A model generated the notes under the pieces. The model had not been told where the DNA came from and did no database searches. It was given only the letters and a program-made list of their open reading frames with translations. Below are positions 32,027-51,479 of a DNA stretch of 64,000 nt, piece after piece. Made by a program: the position numbers and the translations under genes. The stretch lies in NCBI GenBank assembly GCA_012729635.1, contig JAAYCT010000039.1, positions 1-64,000 on the forward strand, written 5' to 3'. Numbering within the stretch: the stretch's first letter is position 1; the number at the start of each line of letters is the position of its first letter. The DNA comes from Clostridiaceae bacterium. GTDB lineage: Bacteria > Bacillota > Clostridia > Saccharofermentanales > Saccharofermentanaceae.

Positions 32027-32102
32027 GGAGAACCGCGTAAGCATGTCGATTTCTTATAAATGCCCCCCCCGGTTACTTTTTCTGATTTATCAGGCAAAGT
32101 GA

Positions 32103-32513
32103 TTGCCGCTATTGAAGACATTGGCCGGAGTACTGATCGCCTATGCGGCGGGTCCTTTGCTCGTGATCTATCTTGTCCGAAAGGCCGTTCTTGAGCACAA
32201 GGGCATTACCGAAGTGAATTGGCGTACGTATCTGAATGACCCTCTTAATAACGATTTTTGTTCGCAACCGTCCGATATCGAACCGGACGATCAGGATTAC
32301 TGGAAAACGCAGGAGATTATCGCACGTAAAAGAGCGGAACAGGGCGGCGGCTTGGAATATGCCGTTAACAGAAAAGCGCTCGATCCCGATACCGTTGTTT
32401 CCATATTGAACGGGACGGCGGATCACGAAGTTAAAGACACACACATTCCGGAGGGAGATCCGCTCGAAGGCCTCCCCGAATACGATCCGAACGGACCGAA
32501 TCCGTTCGGATGA
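32103..32513 (+). CDS. Small membrane protein of unknown function
   Basis: A 136-residue protein not recognised. One N-terminal helix (residues 4-26, LKTLAGVLIAYAAGPLLVIY) is followed by a soluble acidic and Pro/Asp-rich part ending GLPEYDPNGPNPFG. The start is a TTG with a weak ribosome site. Codon use matches its neighbours and a terminator follows, supporting a real gene, probably the last of the alaS-HIT unit. Confidence 0.6.
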   Translation: MPLLKTLAGVLIAYAAGPLLVIYLVRKAVLEHKGITEVNWRTYLNDPLNNDFCSQPSDIEPDDQDYWKTQEIIARKRAEQGGGLEYAVNRKALDPDTVVSILNGTADHEVKDTHIPEGDPLEGLPEYDPNGPNPFG

Positions 32514-32565: not shown

Positions 32566-32592
32566 AAAAACCGCCGCTCCGGCGATTTTTTT
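32566..32592 (+). terminator. Intrinsic terminator of the alaS unit
   Basis: cgccg (32572-32576) pairs with cggcg (32580-32584) around a 3-base loop, flanked by an A-run upstream and eight Ts downstream. Confidence 0.8.
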
Positions 32593-32620: not shown

Positions 32621-32648
32621 TTGCGCCTCGATTATTATGAACTATAAT
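32621..32648 (+). promoter_or_regulatory. Promoter of the tandem lipoprotein cluster
   Basis: TTGCGC (32621-32626) and TATAAT (32643-32648) are spaced by 16 bases, just after the terminator of the preceding unit and 36 bases before ATG 32685. Confidence 0.6.
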
Positions 32649-32684: not shown

Positions 32685-34028
32685 ATGCGGAGAATTATCG
32701 AGCGGATTGTTATCGTTTTTATACTCGCGCTATTGCTGGTTGCATCCGCCTGTACTGTGGAATTTGTTCAAAAGCCGTCCGGAACAGAGACGGAGGTTAC
32801 AGATATAACGACAACGGAAACGAGTGTAAATCCGACCGTAACGCCGACACGCAAGCCCACTCCGACGCCAAAGCCCACCGCGACACCCAAGCCGACGGCG
32901 ACTCCGACTCCGGAACCGGAGCCGGATCCCTTGGAGGGTTACTCTTTGCAGGAAGGATATCTTTTAAGGGATGTGTCTGCCGAAGATGCCGAAGGGAAGA
33001 TTAAACTTCTGAAGGCCGGAAGCCTGATTTGCATTTTCAGCAAAGAAGAGGGAATCATTGATGAGAGCAGTCGATTCTTTTTGACCGATTATTACTCTGC
33101 AAGTAGTACGGACAGCCCCGACGATGAAGTCTTTTTCGAAATCTCCCGGAATCGAATCGGCGCGATTTGTTTTTCGGGCATACCGGAGCACGAGCTATTC
33201 GGAACCCGGGAGACGGTCGAACTGGATAAGCGAAAAGTGGTCGAGATTGAGCCCGGAACGCAAGTCAAGCGGATTTCGGAGACGGAGCGCTATGTGATGC
33301 GGGTCGACTGGGATCGGGACGGATACGAAGACGAGGTAGCTTTTGAAATAATAGATGAGAGATATTCTGCGGAAGTGATTTGTTATTATAAAAGCGGTAA
33401 GGACGGAAGTTCGATCCGTGTCCGAATTATGCCGGATCTCGAACAGGAATTTGATGATTATGCTGTTTCTGCCGAGACTTTGCTACTGACGCAAAAACCA
33501 AACGGTGCTTATGTGGTGATTATTTGTGCAGATTTACACTCATTTATGCCCTGGGCGATGTCCATGCAATCTTGGGCGGTGTCGTATGGTACAGAACAGG
33601 TTTTCGCGAAGAAGGACATTAGCGGACTTTTCGAGTATCAGGACGGAGTACTGTATCAAGGCGATGATGGACGTTTTTTTGCGTGGCACACGAAAACGAA
33701 AACCGCGGTTCAACTCAACAATGATCTTTCCTTGGAATATCTTTCGGGTACGCATTACTTTCTAAACTACTGGGATCCGATAACCTATTTGCTAATGGAC
33801 ACGGAAGTTCAAATGAAGAAGGATACCCGGTATGTTCCGGAAAGCTTACCGGCGGGGACGTTCATCATCCCGGATCGAATGGAAGTGAATTCATCCGGTG
33901 AAGGGTTCTTCTATTTTAGTCTCATGGACGGGCGCCGTGCCAGGTTACATATGGAAACCTCTGAAGGAACCGAATATTTTGGCGAAAAATCTTATGATGA
34001 AGTGTTTTACTTCATGGTTTGCGGATGA
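32685..34028 (+). CDS. Stalked lipoprotein with calcium-loop-like motif, paralog 1
   Basis: A 447-residue predicted lipoprotein: signal peptide with lipobox VASAC (Cys 23), a Thr/Pro/Lys stalk (about 38-82, units such as KPTPTPKPTATPKPTATP), then a folded domain. Residues 208-217 read DWDRDGYEDE, a DxDxDGxxDE calcium-loop-like motif similar to EF-hand/FG-GAP loops. The C-terminus carries EGFFYFSLMDGRRARLHM, shared in position and pattern with three downstream paralogs. The domain is not recognised from any named family. It is first of a four-gene tandem array and should be displayed on the cell surface. Confidence 0.8.
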   Translation: MRRIIERIVIVFILALLLVASACTVEFVQKPSGTETEVTDITTTETSVNPTVTPTRKPTPTPKPTATPKPTATPTPEPEPDPLEGYSLQEGYLLRDVSAEDAEGKIKLLKAGSLICIFSKEEGIIDESSRFFLTDYYSASSTDSPDDEVFFEISRNRIGAICFSGIPEHELFGTRETVELDKRKVVEIEPGTQVKRISETERYVMRVDWDRDGYEDEVAFEIIDERYSAEVICYYKSGKDGSSIRVRIMPDLEQEFDDYAVSAETLLLTQKPNGAYVVIICADLHSFMPWAMSMQSWAVSYGTEQVFAKKDISGLFEYQDGVLYQGDDGRFFAWHTKTKTAVQLNNDLSLEYLSGTHYFLNYWDPITYLLMDTEVQMKKDTRYVPESLPAGTFIIPDRMEVNSSGEGFFYFSLMDGRRARLHMETSEGTEYFGEKSYDEVFYFMVCG

Positions 34029-34097
34029 GTGATTACACCCGGTAAACAATTAAAACGGATTATCGGATTCGAAAAAAAAGCAGGGAGGAATCGACAA

Positions 34098-35507
34098 ATG
34101 AACAGAAAAAATATGATCGCGACGGCGGCGCTTCTTCTGTTTCTGTCGATGATTTTCTCCGCGTGTGCCCTGAACGTAAAGTCGATTCGAAAACCCTCTG
34201 AAACGACGGAGGAAATTGAAAATGTGCCGACTTCGGTACCGACTTTAGCACCGACTTTGACACCGACGACGAAACCGACTGCGACGCCGACGCGCAAACC
34301 CACTGCGACACCCAAGCCGACTCTAACGCCGACCCCGACGATTGATCCGGCTGAGGCGGAGATTTCCTTCGCAGATCAGAATGCCGAAAAAGCCTTTCTT
34401 TTGGCGGATGTTAACGCGAAGGACTTCTACGGACAGCCGGTCGAACTCAAAGTCGGTCAAGTGATATGGATCTACACCCCCGAGAATGAAACGACCGACG
34501 AAACGAGCCGCTTTTTTCTGCCGATCGCAGAAGAAATAACAGATGAATATCCGAGTGAGAATGTAAAGGCTTCCCGGGAATTGTTTTTCGATATGTCCGA
34601 AAATCGTTATGGAATGACCTGCTTTTCCGGGTTTCCGGAATATGATCTGTTCGGAACAGAAGCAAACTTGCGCACTAATCTAAAGCGTGTTGTCGAAGTG
34701 AAGCCGTGGGAGCAAATAGATCTCATGAGTCAACAGCGATATCTGATGCGTATTGACTGGGATCGGGACGGTTCGAGCGACGAGTTATTTTTGGAGTACG
34801 ACGGGGTCCGGTACAACGACCCTTTCACTTTAACGATCCGAAGCGGCACGGACGGAAGTTCTTATAGAGAAGCGGATTGTCTCTATGCGGAGATGTTTTG
34901 GGATAACTCACCTTACATCGGTTATATTATCCCGGAAAAACTGATTCTGGCTCAGAAACCAAACGGGGACTATGTGCTTCTTATTTGCGAAAACATCTCC
35001 ACAGTGTATGATGACTCAGAACCGGAGGGTGCTGCAGCGATATACTACAATCCGGATTCGATGTTTTCGGTTCGGGGGATGTACGATGCCTTCGGCTGTG
35101 AAGACGAAGTTTTGTATGTCTCCGGAAGAAGCGGTTTTTTCTATGGGATCTGGACGACGAAAAGAGCGGTCCGACTCAATGATGACTGGACTTTGGATAC
35201 CCTCTCAGATACGGTGTATTACCTGAACAGCTGGGGCTCTTACACCTACTCGCGTGAAGATGTGAACATAGAGATCGAAGGGCCTTCCGGATACACCCCC
35301 TCCGTCTTGCCTGAGGGAATGGTCATTATCCCCGAAAAAGAAGTCCTGGATTCCGATGGTAAGGGCTATCTTTACGTTCGCCTCGCGGACGGAAGGAAGG
35401 CGCGGATCAAGGCAGAGTGCAATTATAAGTATGAATATGGAGAGCGAATCGCGCTTCTCGACGGAAGAGACGACCGCGATCTTTTTCACTATATCGTCGG
35501 CGGTTGA
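34098..35507 (+). CDS. Stalked lipoprotein with calcium-loop-like motif, paralog 2
   Basis: A 469-residue relative of the preceding gene. Lipobox FSAC (Cys 23) is followed by a TP-rich stalk (about 44-82), then the shared domain: RELFFDMSENRYGMTCFSGFP, the loop DWDRDGSSDE at 220-229, IWTTKRAVRLNDDWTLDTL and GKGYLYVRLADGRKARIK. ATG 34098 has GGGAGGA at good spacing; the open frame to 34029 lies in the intergenic gap. Function unknown; surface binding of a ligand with calcium is an inference from the motif and anchoring. Confidence 0.8.
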   Translation: MNRKNMIATAALLLFLSMIFSACALNVKSIRKPSETTEEIENVPTSVPTLAPTLTPTTKPTATPTRKPTATPKPTLTPTPTIDPAEAEISFADQNAEKAFLLADVNAKDFYGQPVELKVGQVIWIYTPENETTDETSRFFLPIAEEITDEYPSENVKASRELFFDMSENRYGMTCFSGFPEYDLFGTEANLRTNLKRVVEVKPWEQIDLMSQQRYLMRIDWDRDGSSDELFLEYDGVRYNDPFTLTIRSGTDGSSYREADCLYAEMFWDNSPYIGYIIPEKLILAQKPNGDYVLLICENISTVYDDSEPEGAAAIYYNPDSMFSVRGMYDAFGCEDEVLYVSGRSGFFYGIWTTKRAVRLNDDWTLDTLSDTVYYLNSWGSYTYSREDVNIEIEGPSGYTPSVLPEGMVIIPEKEVLDSDGKGYLYVRLADGRKARIKAECNYKYEYGERIALLDGRDDRDLFHYIVGG

Positions 35508-35525
35508 CGGCGATGTAGGGATAAA

Positions 35526-35541
35526 CCGGCCTTTCGGCCGG
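35526..35541 (+). other. GC-rich hairpin between paralogs 2 and 3
   Basis: ccggcc and ggccgg form a 6-bp stem with loop tttc. No T-run follows, so it is not a clear terminator; it may pause transcription or stabilise mRNA ends within the tandem array. Confidence 0.45.
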
Positions 35542-35600
35542 GATGTTGGTACCCGGCGAAAAGCGGACACAGAGGATTGATTTGAATCGGAGGACGGGAT

Positions 35601-36935
35601 ATGCGTTTTTCAAGATCTCTTCGCAAAATACTTCGGATCTCTTTGACCGCACTGATTGTCCTTTGTATATCATTTTTCCTGAGGTCGGTGAGCGATGAGA
35701 CGAAGCATCTACCGGAAGATTCGGTTCTGGATCTGGCACGGTTTGATGTTGCGGCCGCAGAAACTGATGAGGGTGAAGACCCGCTTACACAATGGAGTAC
35801 ATGGAATAAATATGAACGTATGCTGAGTCAGGACATCGCGGTGAAAGATGTCGACGGCGGGATGGTGCCGCTTCGGGCCGGGCAGGTGGTCTTTGTGTAC
35901 ACGCGGGAAGAGTATTGCATCGACGCATCGACTCGCTTCTTTTCGTATAATGAAGAAGAACTGTTTTTTGATCGTGCGTTTAATGAGCCCGGTACATTGC
36001 TCCTGTCCGGTATCCCGGCCGATCTGCTTCTGGTCGAACCCGATGCGTACCTTTTCGGGGGTAAGACGGAGATTAACGGTGAGGCGTGGGTTATGCTAAG
36101 GGAAGTATCCGAAGATGATCGCGTCATTTACCGGGTGGATTGGGACGGAGATGGGGTGAAGGACGAGGTATTTGTCGAGCCGATTGACGGAATTGCCGTG
36201 CGGGTTTTTTTTCGGAACGGAACGAATGGGGATGTTGCCTCGATTGTTTTTGATCACGACTGGGATCACGATCATGAAATCAAAGACTACTACGGTAGCA
36301 ATCAAGAAACAGAGTATACGGAATATCTGACGGTTTGTTGGAAAGAATTTTATATGCCCCATGATTATTCCGTGCTTTTGTATCAAGACGAATCAAATCG
36401 TTATGTCATCATGTTGGGAAAAGATTATTACCGTTTGTCTCCGGGTCAGCTTGCCCCGTATATGGTATTTGTTCACTTTGATCCTGTGTTTGGTCTTTCG
36501 GATCACAAAGTGAAAGCCCTTTATGATTATGACGGAAAAGATTTCTATCAATATCGAATCAGTCGATTTCTCGGTGATATCTGGATGACCAGAGAAAAGG
36601 TGGCATTAAACGACGACTTCTCAACGGGCAGAATATCGGACTCCATTGATTATTTGAGCGGATGTGTAGGAAATGTTCATACGCTTCGGCCCATCAAAGC
36701 GCAAATTCAAGGATCCGGCGGGTTCTATTCTTCGACGATCGACGCAGGAACTGCTATTAAACCCATTCGACTGGAATTGGACGCCAACGGTGAGGGATTC
36801 CTTTATGTGCGGCTCTATGACGGAAAAATTGCCAGAATCCGGGCTTCGTTTGATGAAGAAACCAATATCGGAATCATTGACGGAGGTCCTCAGACGGAGG
36901 CCATATTGTGTTATCGGGCAGAGTATATTCCTTAG
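35601..36935 (+). CDS. Membrane-anchored paralog 3, without stalk
   Basis: A 444-residue paralog of the two preceding genes. It differs at the N-terminus: a hydrophobic segment (about 12-29, ISLTALIVLCISFFL) works as a signal anchor or signal peptide, with no clear lipobox, and the TP-rich stalk is missing. The shared domain is intact: EELFFDRAFNEPGTLLLSGIP, DWDGDGVKDE at 180-189, RFLGDIWMTREKVALNDDFS and GEGFLYVRLYDGKIARIR. The ribosome site GGAGGACGGG precedes ATG. It may have lost its stalk after duplication or sit closer to the membrane. Confidence 0.78.
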   Translation: MRFSRSLRKILRISLTALIVLCISFFLRSVSDETKHLPEDSVLDLARFDVAAAETDEGEDPLTQWSTWNKYERMLSQDIAVKDVDGGMVPLRAGQVVFVYTREEYCIDASTRFFSYNEEELFFDRAFNEPGTLLLSGIPADLLLVEPDAYLFGGKTEINGEAWVMLREVSEDDRVIYRVDWDGDGVKDEVFVEPIDGIAVRVFFRNGTNGDVASIVFDHDWDHDHEIKDYYGSNQETEYTEYLTVCWKEFYMPHDYSVLLYQDESNRYVIMLGKDYYRLSPGQLAPYMVFVHFDPVFGLSDHKVKALYDYDGKDFYQYRISRFLGDIWMTREKVALNDDFSTGRISDSIDYLSGCVGNVHTLRPIKAQIQGSGGFYSSTIDAGTAIKPIRLELDANGEGFLYVRLYDGKIARIRASFDEETNIGIIDGGPQTEAILCYRAEYIP

Positions 36936-37037
36936 TCCGTTGGACCAAAGGCTAAGAGAAAACGGAAAATGAAGCATTCGGTAACGGGAAGAAGTGTTCA
37001 TTCGGCAACTATGATAAATGATTTTAGGAGATAGGAA

Positions 37038-38408
37038 ATGAGGAGAAAAGCGCGATATCTATTTATACTGAATTTGTTAATCGTTATGATCGTTTTTTCC
37101 TCATGTGCGTTGAAATCAGTAAGACGCCCGATCGAATCGACTCTACCAGTTATTGCCGGTGAAACGTCCGGAACGGAGAAGACCGCGACTGCGGACACAA
37201 CTTCTGTGCCGTCGCCGACGCCGAAGGCTTCACCGACTCCGAGAGCGTCGGTGACTCCTTCTCCGACTCCAAAGCCGTCGCCCACACCTTCCCCGACTCC
37301 GACACCGAGGCCGATTGAGAGTTTGTATGAAGGGGAGCCGGTTGTTTTGCAACGGAGTATCAATGCCCGCACCGCCGATGGAGAGACGATTCGCCTGGCT
37401 GCGGGTCAAGTGATGATTTCTTTTGATGATTACGATGGTTCTACCAGTCGGACTCGATACGCTACCTATGACCTGAAGGAGATCTTTCTCGATATAACGC
37501 ACAACAGATATGGAACAGCTATGATCGACGGGACTCCGATGTTTGAGTATTTTGCCCAAACGAAAAAAAACGCGCGGGAACTCTCGCCGTGGGAACTGGC
37601 TCCGGGGCCTTCTTCCGATGATCGTATTGTCATACGTGTCGATTGGGACGGGGACAGCAAAAGAGACGAAATATCTATGAACACGTCTTATCAGGCGGTT
37701 TTCCGAAGCGGCTCGGACGGCGCTACGGCGATATGTGAAATTAATGCCTATAATTACTCTCTTTGGGAAGAAGATCCGTACCGAATGGAAGGGCATGAGG
37801 AGGTTTATCCTCCATATCCGTTGGAGATCTTGGCCTATTCAACGATTATGCTCTTTGAAGATTCTTCGGGAGATCCGGTCATCATGCGCAGTATAGATTT
37901 GAGCAAAGACGGAAATTGGGGCTCTTGCACCGTCACTTCATTTATTAAGTATGATCCGGTATCCGGGTTTTCGATTACGGAGATTCCCGGGAGCTTTACC
38001 TTTGAGGACGGTCATTTCTACCGATATGGTATCGGACGGTTTATCGGAGACATTTGGATGACCCAAAGGCAGGTTACCATTAACGATGATTTTTCATACT
38101 CATATGCGTCAGATACCGAGTATTATCTTGTGGGCTGGAAAGACTATACGTACACCCTCGGCCCGGTTCAGGCAGAGATTGAGGGAAAATACGGATTTGT
38201 GCCTTCCGTCATTCCATCCGGAATGGTCGCATATCCGAAAAAAACCGTTCTCGATTCTGAGGGAAAGGGTTTTCTGTACCTGACGCTTGCGGACGGAAGA
38301 ATCGCACGCGTACGGGCATCGTACAATTCAGTGACCAATGCCACATTACTGGATGATCGGCCCCAGGACGAGGTTTTTGCCTGTTACAGTGTGATGTTTG
38401 GCGGGTAG
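37038..38408 (+). CDS. Stalked lipoprotein with calcium-loop-like motif, paralog 4
   Basis: A 456-residue paralog. Lipobox FSSC (Cys 23) is followed by a Ser/Thr/Pro stalk (about 55-93, PSPTPKASPTPRASVTPSPT). Shared domain elements are KEIFLDITHNRYGTAMIDGTP, the loop DWDGDSKRDE at 202-211 (Ser replaces the usual Gly), RFIGDIWMTQRQVTINDDFS and GKGFLYLTLADGRIARVR. It is closest to paralog 3 in the IGDIWMT block. It is last in the array; no obvious terminator was seen in 38409-38535. Confidence 0.8.
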   Translation: MRRKARYLFILNLLIVMIVFSSCALKSVRRPIESTLPVIAGETSGTEKTATADTTSVPSPTPKASPTPRASVTPSPTPKPSPTPSPTPTPRPIESLYEGEPVVLQRSINARTADGETIRLAAGQVMISFDDYDGSTSRTRYATYDLKEIFLDITHNRYGTAMIDGTPMFEYFAQTKKNARELSPWELAPGPSSDDRIVIRVDWDGDSKRDEISMNTSYQAVFRSGSDGATAICEINAYNYSLWEEDPYRMEGHEEVYPPYPLEILAYSTIMLFEDSSGDPVIMRSIDLSKDGNWGSCTVTSFIKYDPVSGFSITEIPGSFTFEDGHFYRYGIGRFIGDIWMTQRQVTINDDFSYSYASDTEYYLVGWKDYTYTLGPVQAEIEGKYGFVPSVIPSGMVAYPKKTVLDSEGKGFLYLTLADGRIARVRASYNSVTNATLLDDRPQDEVFACYSVMFGG

Positions 38409-39400: not shown

Positions 39401-39841
39401 TCAATTCTGCTCCAAGATAATCGTGAACGGCCCGTCGTTACAAAGCTCTACGTCCATATGGGCGCCGAAGACGCCGTTTTCGACGCGCATGCCGGCCTCG
39501 CGGCACTTTTTCGAAAAATACCCGTAAAGCGCGTTTGCGGTTTCCGGGTCCGCCGCGTTCGAAAAGCCCGGGCGGTTGCCGTGCGACGTGTCCGCGCAGA
39601 GTGTAAATTGGGAGACGATGAGAAGAGATCCGCCGACGTCCGTGATCGATCGGTTGATCTTGCCGCACTCGTCCTCGAAGATTCGCAGGCCGACGAGTTT
39701 TCGAACCATCTTGTCCGCCATCTCGCGTGTGTCTTCGGCCGCGACGCCGAGGAGCACGAGATACCCCCGGTCGACCGATCCGACCGTTTGACCGTCGATG
39801 CGGACGGAGGCTTGTGTTACGCGCTGAATGACTGCTTTCAT
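39401..39841 (-). CDS. dtd: D-aminoacyl-tRNA deacylase
   Basis: A 146-residue Dtd, the usual family length. Its motifs SQFTLCADTSHGNRPGF (SQxTL block) and ELCNDGPFTIILE (the GP dipeptide that enforces D-chirality, with Phe where Val is usual) are present. It removes D-amino acids, and glycine from tRNA-Ala, protecting translation. ATG 39841 follows GGAGGAACCC; the frame to 39901 is not needed. Confidence 0.95.
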   Translation of the reverse strand: MKAVIQRVTQASVRIDGQTVGSVDRGYLVLLGVAAEDTREMADKMVRKLVGLRIFEDECGKINRSITDVGGSLLIVSQFTLCADTSHGNRPGFSNAADPETANALYGYFSKKCREAGMRVENGVFGAHMDVELCNDGPFTIILEQN

Positions 39842-40857: not shown

Positions 40858-43248
40858 ATGTTGCTTGTATCAGAGAAAAAAAGACACAAATCTATTTTGA
40901 GCAGATGCGTCTGTCTTTTGTTGTGCATAACGATATTTCCGCTTTCGGCGTGTAACACAAAGAAATCTTCCGATGAAAAAGAAATCCTAATGGCAGAAGA
41001 CTTTTCATCAGAGACATATCCTGAAGAGAAAACATATTTTGAACCTGCGGAACTCAGTTATTTATCTTTTTCCGAAGAGCAAGAGCCGAATGCCATTTCG
41101 ATGACCGCATGCGGGGATTTGCTTGCCGTTCTGGTCCGGAGCATAGCAAAAGATGGCATCCATTATCAGACACATATGTGTTTTTTTGATCGGACGGGCG
41201 TAGAAATCGGAAGTTTTTGTTTTGAATCAGTACTTGAAACGGACAATGTGTTTGTGTCATATGTTTCCGGTAAAAAGGATGGGATAACCGCTTATATCAC
41301 CGTTTTTGACAACAAAAGTAATAGCTTGACCAATGGATTCTACTCCTTCGACACATCCGGAAACATGCTTCGGGATGCGGTTGACTTGACCTTTTCGGAT
41401 ACAAGTTTTTCTCCTACAGGATTGTTCGTTCTTCAAAGCGGTGAGACAGTTCTCAGCGGAATCTGTTCCGAAGGGAATGTATTTTACATGTATAGTACAG
41501 ATATGAAATATCTCTATACGATATCCGGGGATCAACTAACGGGAAAAATACTGGAATCCGGTGGTGATGTGTATGTCGAAAGCCGGATGTTTACAGACGG
41601 AACTCAAGAGGATATTCTGTATAATGTTGACATGAATACGGGGAATCTGACTTCATCCATAGACGTGTCCCAAATTACAGGCGCATGCTTCACCGCAAGC
41701 AACTCCGGGAAGTTATACGCAGTAGATGCACAGAGTTTATATCTCATTGATCTGGATGGGAAGAAAAAAATCGCGCTTGTAAATTGGTCGGATCTCAATA
41801 TTGACCGATCGATATATTCATCCGTATCGCCGATATGCATTCTGTCAGACGATGTTGTATGTATTCGGGGAACAGCCGGGGACGCAGGATATGACACGGG
41901 CAAGGTCGTCATGCTGACAAGGCAGGACAACAATCCGAACATAGGGAAACAAACAATCTTTCTGGGTGGTTTTTATCTTTCTGACAATACTGCGTTGTTA
42001 TCAACCATTACCAAGTTTAATCAGTCGAATGAACAGTATCGAATTGAAATAAAGGATTATTTCCAGAGCATAGATTGGTCGCAACCACTGGAGCAGATTC
42101 ATTTGAGCCAAGAGGCATGCAGGCAACAGATGTATCTGGACGCGTTCAGCGGGAAAGGCCCGGACATAATTTATGATGTCGGGACACGTTCACTGGCCGC
42201 ATACGAGGCAAACAATCTTCTAATGGACATGTGTCCCTTGATGGAAATGGATCCGGAGTTTGACATAAATGACTTCCTGCCCAATGTTATTGATGCATGT
42301 ACGGTTGACGGAAAATTGTGCAAAATTCCCGCTCATTTTTGGGTATATGGAATAGAAGGAGAGCCTTCCGTGACAAAGGGTATCTCGAGTTGGTCGACAG
42401 TAGAGTTTGATCAAATCGCATCTGCGCTCCCTTCCGGGATGTATATGATCGTAAACACTACGCAACTTGAACTGCTGAGACATGTGCTCGCAGGATCAAT
42501 GAATTTATTTATTGACGACAACACGAAAGAAGTCAATTTCAATACAGATGAATTCTTCAAGATCCTGAAGTGGGCGAAAACGTACGGAGAAAAAGAGCCG
42601 GTGTCAGAAGAACTGAGAGTATATGTCAATACAGAAGAACTGTTAGAAAAAAACCTGCTTGTATGCAATACACATGGCTTTATATCGGACGCATCGAAAT
42701 TTGCTTCCATTTTCCCCAGGTATTATGGGACTGCTCCCGACATTATCGGGTATCCTTCTCCGGCAAAGAATGGTCCATACATATATCCTATAGAACAAGT
42801 TGCGATTTCTTCATCATGTGATAGTCCGGGTGGTGCATGGTCCTTTGTCAAATATCTATTGTCGGAAGATTACCAAACGATGAATTCTTCCGGTTCTGAG
42901 TACGCAGAAAAGCTGGGTACGGGATATGGATTTCCTGTTCGCACAGAATCCTTGCAGGCGCTTATGGAAATCGCTTTGAATCCGCCCGAAATTGTTGAAG
43001 AGTTTCCTTCAGGAGACTCGGAATTATATCCCGACCCCTATGAGGAACTATATGGAATGACGCAGGAACGTGCCGATGCATGTTTAGCTGCCGTCAACAG
43101 TGCAGATACACTTTATTACCTTGATGAGGAAATATATAAAATCATACAAGAAGAGGTAACGGCTTACTTCGAAGACCTGAAATCTGTGGAAGATGTAACT
43201 GCATTGATTCAGAACAGAGTGCAGACACTGGTTTCTGAACGGGAATAG
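40858..43248 (+). CDS. Lipoprotein with propeller-like half and solute-binding half
   Basis: A 796-residue lipoprotein. The signal peptide ends in lipobox LSAC (about residue 32). Residues 60-350 are repeated short strand units (SYLSFSEEQEPNAISM; LTGKILESGGDVYVE; KLYAVDAQSLYLIDLDGKK) typical of a beta-propeller. Residues 360-790 look like a family 1 solute-binding protein (TKFNQSNEQYRIEIKDY, FSGKGPDIIYDVGT, PSPAKNGPYIYPIEQVAISS, PGGAWSFVKYLLS). No ABC permease or ATPase gene is adjacent, so transport with a distant system or a sensing role are both possible. GGGAGG precedes ATG. Confidence 0.75.
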   Translation: MLLVSEKKRHKSILSRCVCLLLCITIFPLSACNTKKSSDEKEILMAEDFSSETYPEEKTYFEPAELSYLSFSEEQEPNAISMTACGDLLAVLVRSIAKDGIHYQTHMCFFDRTGVEIGSFCFESVLETDNVFVSYVSGKKDGITAYITVFDNKSNSLTNGFYSFDTSGNMLRDAVDLTFSDTSFSPTGLFVLQSGETVLSGICSEGNVFYMYSTDMKYLYTISGDQLTGKILESGGDVYVESRMFTDGTQEDILYNVDMNTGNLTSSIDVSQITGACFTASNSGKLYAVDAQSLYLIDLDGKKKIALVNWSDLNIDRSIYSSVSPICILSDDVVCIRGTAGDAGYDTGKVVMLTRQDNNPNIGKQTIFLGGFYLSDNTALLSTITKFNQSNEQYRIEIKDYFQSIDWSQPLEQIHLSQEACRQQMYLDAFSGKGPDIIYDVGTRSLAAYEANNLLMDMCPLMEMDPEFDINDFLPNVIDACTVDGKLCKIPAHFWVYGIEGEPSVTKGISSWSTVEFDQIASALPSGMYMIVNTTQLELLRHVLAGSMNLFIDDNTKEVNFNTDEFFKILKWAKTYGEKEPVSEELRVYVNTEELLEKNLLVCNTHGFISDASKFASIFPRYYGTAPDIIGYPSPAKNGPYIYPIEQVAISSSCDSPGGAWSFVKYLLSEDYQTMNSSGSEYAEKLGTGYGFPVRTESLQALMEIALNPPEIVEEFPSGDSELYPDPYEELYGMTQERADACLAAVNSADTLYYLDEEIYKIIQEEVTAYFEDLKSVEDVTALIQNRVQTLVSERE

Positions 43249-43386: not shown

Positions 43387-43458
43387 ACCAACGTTACCCT
43401 ACCGGGCAGGTGTCCGGAAAGGGTCGACGATTAATCGCACGAGGGGAGGGATGATAAA

Positions 43459-43632
43459 GTGTCCGAAATCAGAATCAAGGAAAACGAGTCCCTTGACAGT
43501 GCGTTGCGTCGTTTTAAGCGTTCATGCGCGAGGTCCGGGGTTCTTGCGGAGGTTCGTAAAAGAGAACACTACGAGAAGCCGTCCGTGAAGAGGAAGAAGA
43601 AATCCGAAGCGGCAAGGAAGCGCAAGCGCTAA
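43459..43632 (+). CDS. rpsU: 30S ribosomal protein S21
   Basis: Translation from GTG 43459 gives 57 residues: [20 protein letters not shown], then [20 protein letters not shown] and a basic tail [14 protein letters not shown]. This is a complete S21, matching the family's length, the LRRFKR core and the Lys/Arg-rich C-terminus. GGGGAGGG lies 8-9 bases before the start. It has its own promoter and its own terminator. The small size and GTG start make it easy to miss. Confidence 0.95.
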
Positions 43633-43656
43633 GTAAAGAGAATCGTTTCCAAGGGA

Positions 43657-43687
43657 GACCCGATGCGTTTGTGTCGGGTCTTTTTTT
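43657..43687 (+). terminator. Intrinsic terminator after rpsU
   Basis: gacccga and tcgggtc form a 7-bp stem with a 10-base loop, followed by seven Ts. It overlaps ATG 43663, which would otherwise be taken as the recJ start, and so argues for the downstream TTG. Confidence 0.85.
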
Positions 43688-50270: not shown

Positions 50271-51479
50271 TCAGACTCGAATATTTAAGAAGAATGAGTT
50301 TCCCCCGCAGTCGCCGTAATAAACCCAAATCTTCTTCCACCTTTCCGTATCCGGGCACCCGGCTTGATTAAAAAAGATCACGTTCGTTGGAATCGGTGGA
50401 TTCTGGAATGCCTCAACAACAGCCTCTCTGGAGGATTGTTGTGGTAGTAATTTAGAAGTATATTCACCGGTTTCGCTGTTATATACGTCCGTTGAAAACT
50501 GGTCTTTCTGTGTAATAACCTGAAAAACAGTGTTCGGCCAGCTTTTATTATTCACCCGGTTCCAAATTACTTGCGCGACCCAAATTTGGCCGGTTTTCAT
50601 ACCGGTGCCGCTGGGACGCTCGGATTCGACGATTCCGGCCATCAATTCGAAATCATCGACAGAAAGTCCAACCGCGGCGGCCATCTCCGGAACTCCGCTC
50701 GGGACGGGTATTTTTGTCGGTGCAGGTGTCGGAATTTTGGTCGGTATCCGTGTAGGCGTGGGCGTTGCCGGGCGATCGTCCGAGCACAAAGAAGCGAGAA
50801 CATATGTATCTTTAACGGTACGATACCAGTCGTTGGCGGTGATTGCGACCACCTCGATCGCACTTCCCTTAGAGAGTTCCCTGACGATCTCATAATCGGT
50901 TCCGGGACCGCTCCGGACGTTGAGTTCACCCTTCGCGTAATACTTGCCGGAGAAGGGTTTTTCCGGAATCTTTTTCGTGATGAACTCGGAGATGACATAA
51001 CGGTTGTTGCCGATTTTCTTCCAGCCGTTGTCGGTCGACGCGACAACGTTAATTTTGTTGCCCCATTCGAGCGTTTCGATGATTTCGTAATCCGTTCCCG
51101 GGCCGGACCGGACATTGATTTCTCCGGTCGCGTAATAAACGGCGGACTCCTCGGTCTCCGTAAACGACGGATCGGTTGCCGCCGTCGTATCGTCCGGCTC
51201 GGAAGCGGAGGGGTCGGAAAGATCGGAGTCTGTTTCGGTCGCAGACGCCGAAATCGGATCGGTGGATACGGGATCGGAAGGCTCGGACCCGGACGAATCC
51301 GGCGAAACAGTGGAGGATTCATAAGACGTTTCCGATCGGTCGTTTTTCGAATTCGAAAACATCGCGTCTGCCCCGAGAATCGAGACAAAGGCGAGTGCCA
51401 GAAGCAAACCGATGCCGATGACGGTTCGAATCCCTTCTCCGGGGCTTCTATATTCCTTTGGTAAGCCGATAAATTTCAT
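50271..51479 (-). CDS. SH3b-SH3b-SleB cell wall hydrolase
   Basis: A 402-residue envelope protein. A membrane anchor or signal (about 18-38, VIGIGLLLALAFVSILGA) is followed by a Ser/Thr/Asp/Pro-rich linker (45-112), then two bacterial SH3 domains with repeated INVRSGPGTDYEIIETL and LNVRSGPGTDYEIVREL, a PTPTRIPTKIPTPAPTKIP stalk, and a C-terminal SleB/CwlJ-type hydrolase domain (AGIVESERPSGTGMKTGQIW, VIWNRVNN, FFNQAGCP). The Glu in GIVESE is the likely catalytic acid. It should cleave peptidoglycan. A general wall role is as likely as a spore cortex role, since no spore gene is nearby. Confidence 0.85.
   Translation of the reverse strand: MKFIGLPKEYRSPGEGIRTVIGIGLLLALAFVSILGADAMFSNSKNDRSETSYESSTVSPDSSGSEPSDPVSTDPISASATETDSDLSDPSASEPDDTTAATDPSFTETEESAVYYATGEINVRSGPGTDYEIIETLEWGNKINVVASTDNGWKKIGNNRYVISEFITKKIPEKPFSGKYYAKGELNVRSGPGTDYEIVRELSKGSAIEVVAITANDWYRTVKDTYVLASLCSDDRPATPTPTRIPTKIPTPAPTKIPVPSGVPEMAAAVGLSVDDFELMAGIVESERPSGTGMKTGQIWVAQVIWNRVNNKSWPNTVFQVITQKDQFSTDVYNSETGEYTSKLLPQQSSREAVVEAFQNPPIPTNVIFFNQAGCPDTERWKKIWVYYGDCGGNSFFLNIRV

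Follow-up and report, generated by a model that had tools for sequence, protein, structure and literature searches.

Four adjacent genes (W1 to W4) in the 64,000-nucleotide stretch of Clostridiaceae bacterium DNA analyzed here (the window) encode paralogous proteins with a common head of about 360 residues. We give about even credence to the reading that they are lineage-restricted, diversifying, membrane-anchored surface-binding proteins with a calcium-stabilized head, and that their copies recombine. On this reading, an unannotated surface-protein family gains an architecture that can be tested, with a calcium blade set between two SH3-like caps, and a poorly studied lineage gains a mode of evolution that can likewise be tested, in which segments are exchanged and a patch behind the calcium site is hypervariable.

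Organization of the W array

The four plus-strand open reading frames share heads that can be aligned end to end, with 27 to 37% pairwise identity and BLASTP E values of 3e-34 to 1e-74; the closest pair is W1 and W2 (37%). The four tandem paralogues of the preliminary description are thereby confirmed. W1 (32685 to 34028; 447 residues), W2 (34098 to 35507; 469 residues), and W4 (37038 to 38408; 456 residues) are predicted stalked lipoproteins, with the lipobox cysteine codon at 32751, 34164, and 37104 and the head at 32943 to 34025, 34374 to 35504, and 37326 to 38405, respectively. W3 (35601 to 36935; 444 residues) is a paralogue without lipobox or TP-rich stalk, and its hydrophobic N terminus resembles a signal or anchor that lacks the cysteine. 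The W2 frame is open from a GTG at 34029 (34029 to 35507), and the ATG at 34098 is the better and probable start. The conserved blocks described earlier hold in part: IGDIWMT...NDDFS is intact in W3 and W4 and degenerate in W2 (YGIWTT...NDDWT) and W1 (AWHTKT...NNDLS), and the ELFFD/NRYG/FSGxP block is only partly kept.

The gaps between the genes are short (about 70, 95, and 100 bp), and W1 to W4 may form a single operon. A putative promoter, read from the sequence (TTGCGC, 16 nt, TATAAT; 32621 to 32648, plus strand), has its TATAAT 36 bp before W1; its −35 element is poor, and a consensus scan missed it. A terminator-like hairpin (32572 to 32584) is also found upstream of W1. The array is flanked by an AlaRS/HIT block on one side and by a methyltransferase gene followed by dtd on the other.

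Lipoprotein anchors and TP-rich stalks

Signal peptides with a lipobox cysteine are found in W1 (ASAC), W2 (FSAC), and W4 (FSSC) and not in W3, and the same three proteins carry a TP-rich stalk of 30 to 40 residues between lipobox and head; the preliminary description had likewise given lipobox and stalk to these three proteins and denied them to W3. The stalks lie on the plus strand at 32823 to 32930 (W1, with repeats of an 18-nt period), 34239 to 34355 (W2), and 37214 to 37313 (W4). They had been described as different in sequence; those of W1 and W2 have repeat units in common. Lipoboxes, stalks, and head identity together support the proposal of surface-anchored paralogous proteins.

Within this order, the TP stalk seems to serve as an anchor in general and does not mark the family. 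A profile that included the stalk matched 107 of 148 genomes, mostly via the signal, lipobox, and TP-stalk part; because it was misleading in this way, a stalk-free family profile (A2) was made and used for the range searches. Other TP-stalk lipoproteins of the order are like the W proteins in signal peptide, lipobox, and TP-rich stalk but differ in their heads, and many such proteins, with matching signal and stalk and different heads, were seen in one genome (G000, contigs C2, C3, C10, C26, C29, and others).

A calcium-blade-like loop

In the six frames of the 64-kb window, the pattern D.[DN].D[GS]..[DE] is matched only at 33306, 34755, 36138, and 37641, precisely the first Asp codons named earlier; since it is confined to the four array sites, the motif is not a chance occurrence. 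The predicted calcium-blade loops, all on the plus strand, are DWDRDGYED in W1 (33306 to 33332), DWDRDGSSD in W2 (34755 to 34781), DWDGDGVKD in W3 (36138 to 36164), and DWDGDSKRD in W4 (37641 to 37667). The motif DxDxDGxxDE, ascribed to all four, is accurate for W1 to W3, whereas W4 reads DWDGDSKRDE, with Gly replaced by Ser. D1, D/N3, D5, and D9 are kept in 11/11 members that cover the loop, which comprises nine residues, with the last ligand position two residues after DG.

In calcium blades, the motif Dx[DN]xDG is separated by two residues from an extra acidic ligand, and the loop occupies the turn between the first and second strands of a four-stranded blade (Rigden 2011, PMC3123361); in integrin calcium blades, the same blade contributes a glycine from its 3,4-loop as well (PMC3192720). 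The spacing of the acidic ligand is the same in all 11 members (in W4 with the G-to-S change). In the AlphaFold2 model of the W4 head the loop is likewise placed in the first A-B turn (strands 99 to 105, 114 to 118, 123 to 127, and 134 to 138), and G129, at least 90% conserved in the alignment, is located in the C-D loop, in the position of the integrin-type glycine. Because the loop spacing and the partner glycine match the published descriptions, the loop probably works like a calcium blade, in keeping with the calcium-type loop first proposed from the sequence.

An EF-hand or dockerin type of calcium protein would share the DxDxDG core, but the nine-residue loop, with its last ligand two residues after DG, departs from EF-hand spacing, the model sets the loop between β-strands, and profile scans of the members returned no EF-hand or dockerin match; this reading is hardly credible. 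The W heads are instead closest to the propellers of the calcium-blade/VCBS (PF13517) and FG-GAP (PF01839) types, of which integrin alphaV, PVL lectin, rhamnogalacturonan lyase, and PilY1 are examples. Both have an A-B-turn Dx[DN]xDGxxD loop, a C-D-loop glycine, and a secreted surface setting, and the W middle aligns structurally to their blades. Unlike these propellers, the W heads have a single loop, are predicted to contain about three blades, and carry at either end an SH3-like cap that is a duplicate of the other, and no member reaches the curated FG-GAP/VCBS cut-offs (PF01839, PF13517; best FG-GAP_3 score, 15.1 bits versus a cut-off of 26.9). An FG-GAP_3 search of the whole genome gave only two weak matches, both in one family member (best E value, 0.08).

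Structure of the head

The AlphaFold2 model of the W4 head, built with seven sequences, is all β and of middling confidence (pLDDT 75, pTM 0.64). It consists of an N-terminal cap (head residues 1 to 90; 37326 to 37595), a middle of about three propeller-like blades (residues 97 to 265; 37614 to 38120), and a C-terminal SH3-like cap (38121 to 38405), the last corresponding to 33756 to 34025 in W1, 35217 to 35504 in W2, and 36648 to 36932 in W3 (all plus strand). Over residues 79 to 269, nearly all VIA matches of the middle are propeller parts, with Z values of at most 7.8, and below a Z value of 8 a common arrangement can suffice for such matches; the blades of integrin alphaV (4um9_A) align with a Z value of 6.7 and an rmsd of 4.6 over 137 residues. 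Closed propellers are reported to have 4 to 12 blades (PMC8023676), and the count of about three comes from a model with a pTM of 0.64. If the three-blade arrangement is true, the calcium blade would function outside a closed propeller.

The N- and C-terminal caps are internal duplicates by hhalign (probability of 94%, E value of 1e-7 for a single comparison), and neither resembles the middle of the head. Modeled alone, the C-terminal cap reached a pLDDT of 87, and its top VIA matches are mostly SH3b or SH3-domain proteins with Z values of 4 to 6 (2evr, 6.0; LytB, 5.4; Clostridium perfringens CPF_0587, 5.0; lysostaphin, 4.9), with the SH3b domains of ALE-1 and endolysin 2638A also among them. 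We consider a propeller-like middle and SH3-like caps the likely fold assignments on the basis of these models. As modeled, the caps resemble bacterial SH3b domains (SH3_3, SH3_4; lysostaphin, LytB, the N-terminal SH3b of NlpC/P60) as small β-barrel-like units but differ in having no sequence-profile match, in an extra terminal helix, and in being duplicated around another domain. The structure prediction and fold search called for earlier, which gave an all-β head with this middle and these caps, yielded no decisive fold match, and Foldseek found nothing with an E value below 0.001 in either PDB or BFVD. Nor did the proposed profile search identify a well-described family: scans of the members, the consensus, and the profile with Pfam, NCBIfam, PADLOC, and PDB sequences returned only stalk or chance matches, and no family claims the head. 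No published account of this architecture was found in the literature searched.

The chief rival to surface binding is an envelope-structural role, in which the caps would attach to peptidoglycan of the same cell, the calcium blade would serve purely for stiffness, and the protein would tie membrane to wall without binding anything outside. The structural matches of the C-terminal cap do include peptidoglycan-binding SH3b domains (lysostaphin, ALE-1, endolysin 2638A), the caps are duplicated, and neither an enzyme signature nor a conserved catalytic set beyond the loop was found in the family. The SH3_3 profile, however, is silent in every member, although it matches 12 places in the genome, 9 of them over the cut-off, and the extreme lineage restriction and hypervariable middle described below would be odd for a structural part; we regard such a role as unlikely, though to be taken seriously.

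Distribution and phylogeny of the family

Six A2 members are present in the window's genome, namely, W1 to W4, C36:2318-3496, and C9:31181-32008 (partial). Its congener, the draft MAG Clostridiaceae bacterium AS10tlH2TH_129, has several (C138, C15, C79) as well as degraded and contig-end pieces, and two further genomes contain two members (G008) and one member (G010, AS08sgBPME_309). The family is present in 4/188 genomes of the order, and no further members turned up among 391 sampled genomes of the class, among 398 of the phylum, or in viral contigs; it scarcely extends beyond a few related bacteria. An initial scan of the genome contigs with W4 alone as the query gave no match, and A2 is too diverged for pattern searching. 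A 23,419-residue frame with the family domain on C9 was discarded as an artifact of an N-masked stretch, its real part being an ordinary C-terminal part of a paralogue, and a phylum match (G671; E value, 0.008) proved to be an unrelated protein with a similar loop, read as an M23-like peptidase. In the congener, a degraded copy that retains only the C-terminal cap, with a stop read through (L050:1656-1862), adjoins a live copy.

W1 to W4 and the congener's copy form one clade (support, 100/100), apart from a clade of C36, C9, C15, and G008; the congener's copy is sister to W2 (99/99), and W3 is a long branch. The pairing of the congener's copy with W2 implies that W1 to W4 had already diverged from one another when the species parted. 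The AS08sgBPME label is used in a MAG study of biogas digesters (PMC7038595); judging from its relatives, the window's organism may live in digesters.

Mosaic divergence at the congener locus

Copy number, whose comparison among relatives had been suggested, does differ between the congeners: the AlaRS-dtd interval holds four copies in the window and one hybrid copy in the congener, which has no W3, W4, or methyltransferase gene there. The hybrid has a W1-like signal peptide (19/23) and a W2-like head (69/70 over residues 80 to 150), and the changeover falls within the stalk or close to it. A 272-bp segment of W2 (34311 to 34582, plus strand), which comprises the stalk end and N-terminal cap, has one mismatch to this copy; in the 4.2 kb alongside, the longest exact run versus the congener is 47. 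From the calcium loop onward, around and behind it (W2 residues 222 to 306; 34761 to 35015, plus strand), 45/80 residues are changed. Synonymous divergence (dS) is 0 at codons 75 to 154 (80 codons) and saturated at codons 235 to 274, versus 0.73 for AlaRS, and the identity and divergence clusters each have a permutation P value of ≤5e-5. Because dS is nonuniform, the mosaic, mainly one gene pair of draft MAGs, points to segment exchange and not to selection alone. Two regions near the array (43435 to 43681 and 39416 to 39521) also contain exact runs of 116, 67, and 106 bp within DNA that is otherwise 72 to 91% identical to the congener's, which suggests exchange around the array as well.

The congener's contig C138 stops at the gene end, and C182 begins with the same last 36 codons; because of this break, assembly error stays a live rival. 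Strain mixtures and collapse of the TP repeats might have produced a chimeric contig, the 36-codon overlap being a typical graph break and the genomes compared being draft MAGs. Yet the open frame is intact across both breakpoints, and the C9/C15 pair, which lies outside the array, has comparable exact runs; we consider an artifact a minority possibility.

The paralogous array itself stands, but the repeated duplication proposed for it is not fresh: the duplications are old, given that W1 and W2 are only 37% identical and W2 is far closer to the congener's head, and the copy-number pattern reflects an ancient array whose copies have since been lost and recombined.

The segment behind the loop might alternatively be exposed to phages or grazers as a variable surface antigen and be replaced by recombination between copies or strains. 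The 45/80 changed residues beside a nearly identical flanking cap, the juxtaposition of zero and saturated dS, the four copies versus one, and the C9/C15 runs would all fit. Against it, only two genomes are involved, the array heads are old (27 to 37% identical) and do not make up a cassette set, no strong inverted repeats were seen around the array, and no recombinase was recognized among the neighbors examined; we hold this to be quite improbable. The variable-antigen character first suggested is supported indirectly, by the mosaic divergence and the hypervariable segment behind the loop, both in draft MAGs; a role of the W proteins in animal immunity is unlikely, since the relatives come from biogas-digester MAG sets.

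Proposed mode of action

For the surface-binding reading, we infer that the lipid would hold the W protein in the membrane, the stalk would carry the head into or past the wall, and calcium would stiffen the first blade; the surface just behind the loop would bind an outside partner, glycan or protein, and the wall may serve as a docking site for one cap or both. Recombination, partly via the common stalk repeats, would delete and hybridize copies and swap segments between related strains, leaving the caps constant while the binding segment varies. A more specific version is tentative and rather improbable: an open module of about three blades of the calcium-blade type, with duplicated SH3-like caps in place of further blades, would form the head of a surface display whose binding segment is swapped between copies and strains by stalk-repeat or cap recombination, in a bacterium that probably does not live in association with a host.

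Genes near the array

No neighbor gene conserved across the family loci was found. Zinc-ribbon neighbors seemed to be shared between loci, but none adjoins the C9 member on its readable side, and they were dropped as partner candidates. Upstream of the array lies a relic (32043 to 32513), which begins as a gene for a zinc-ribbon protein (MSISYKCP) and then runs into C-terminal sequence of a membrane protein. The congener has this membrane protein complete (L048 5767-7414), and about 1.2 kb is absent in the window. Downstream, a putative 796-residue lipoprotein (40858 to 43248) has a weak match to solute-binding proteins in its C-terminal half (E value, 0.00045; below the cut-off), and the minus strand at 50271 to 51479 encodes a cell wall hydrolase (Hydrolase_2) that carries two SH3_3 domains.
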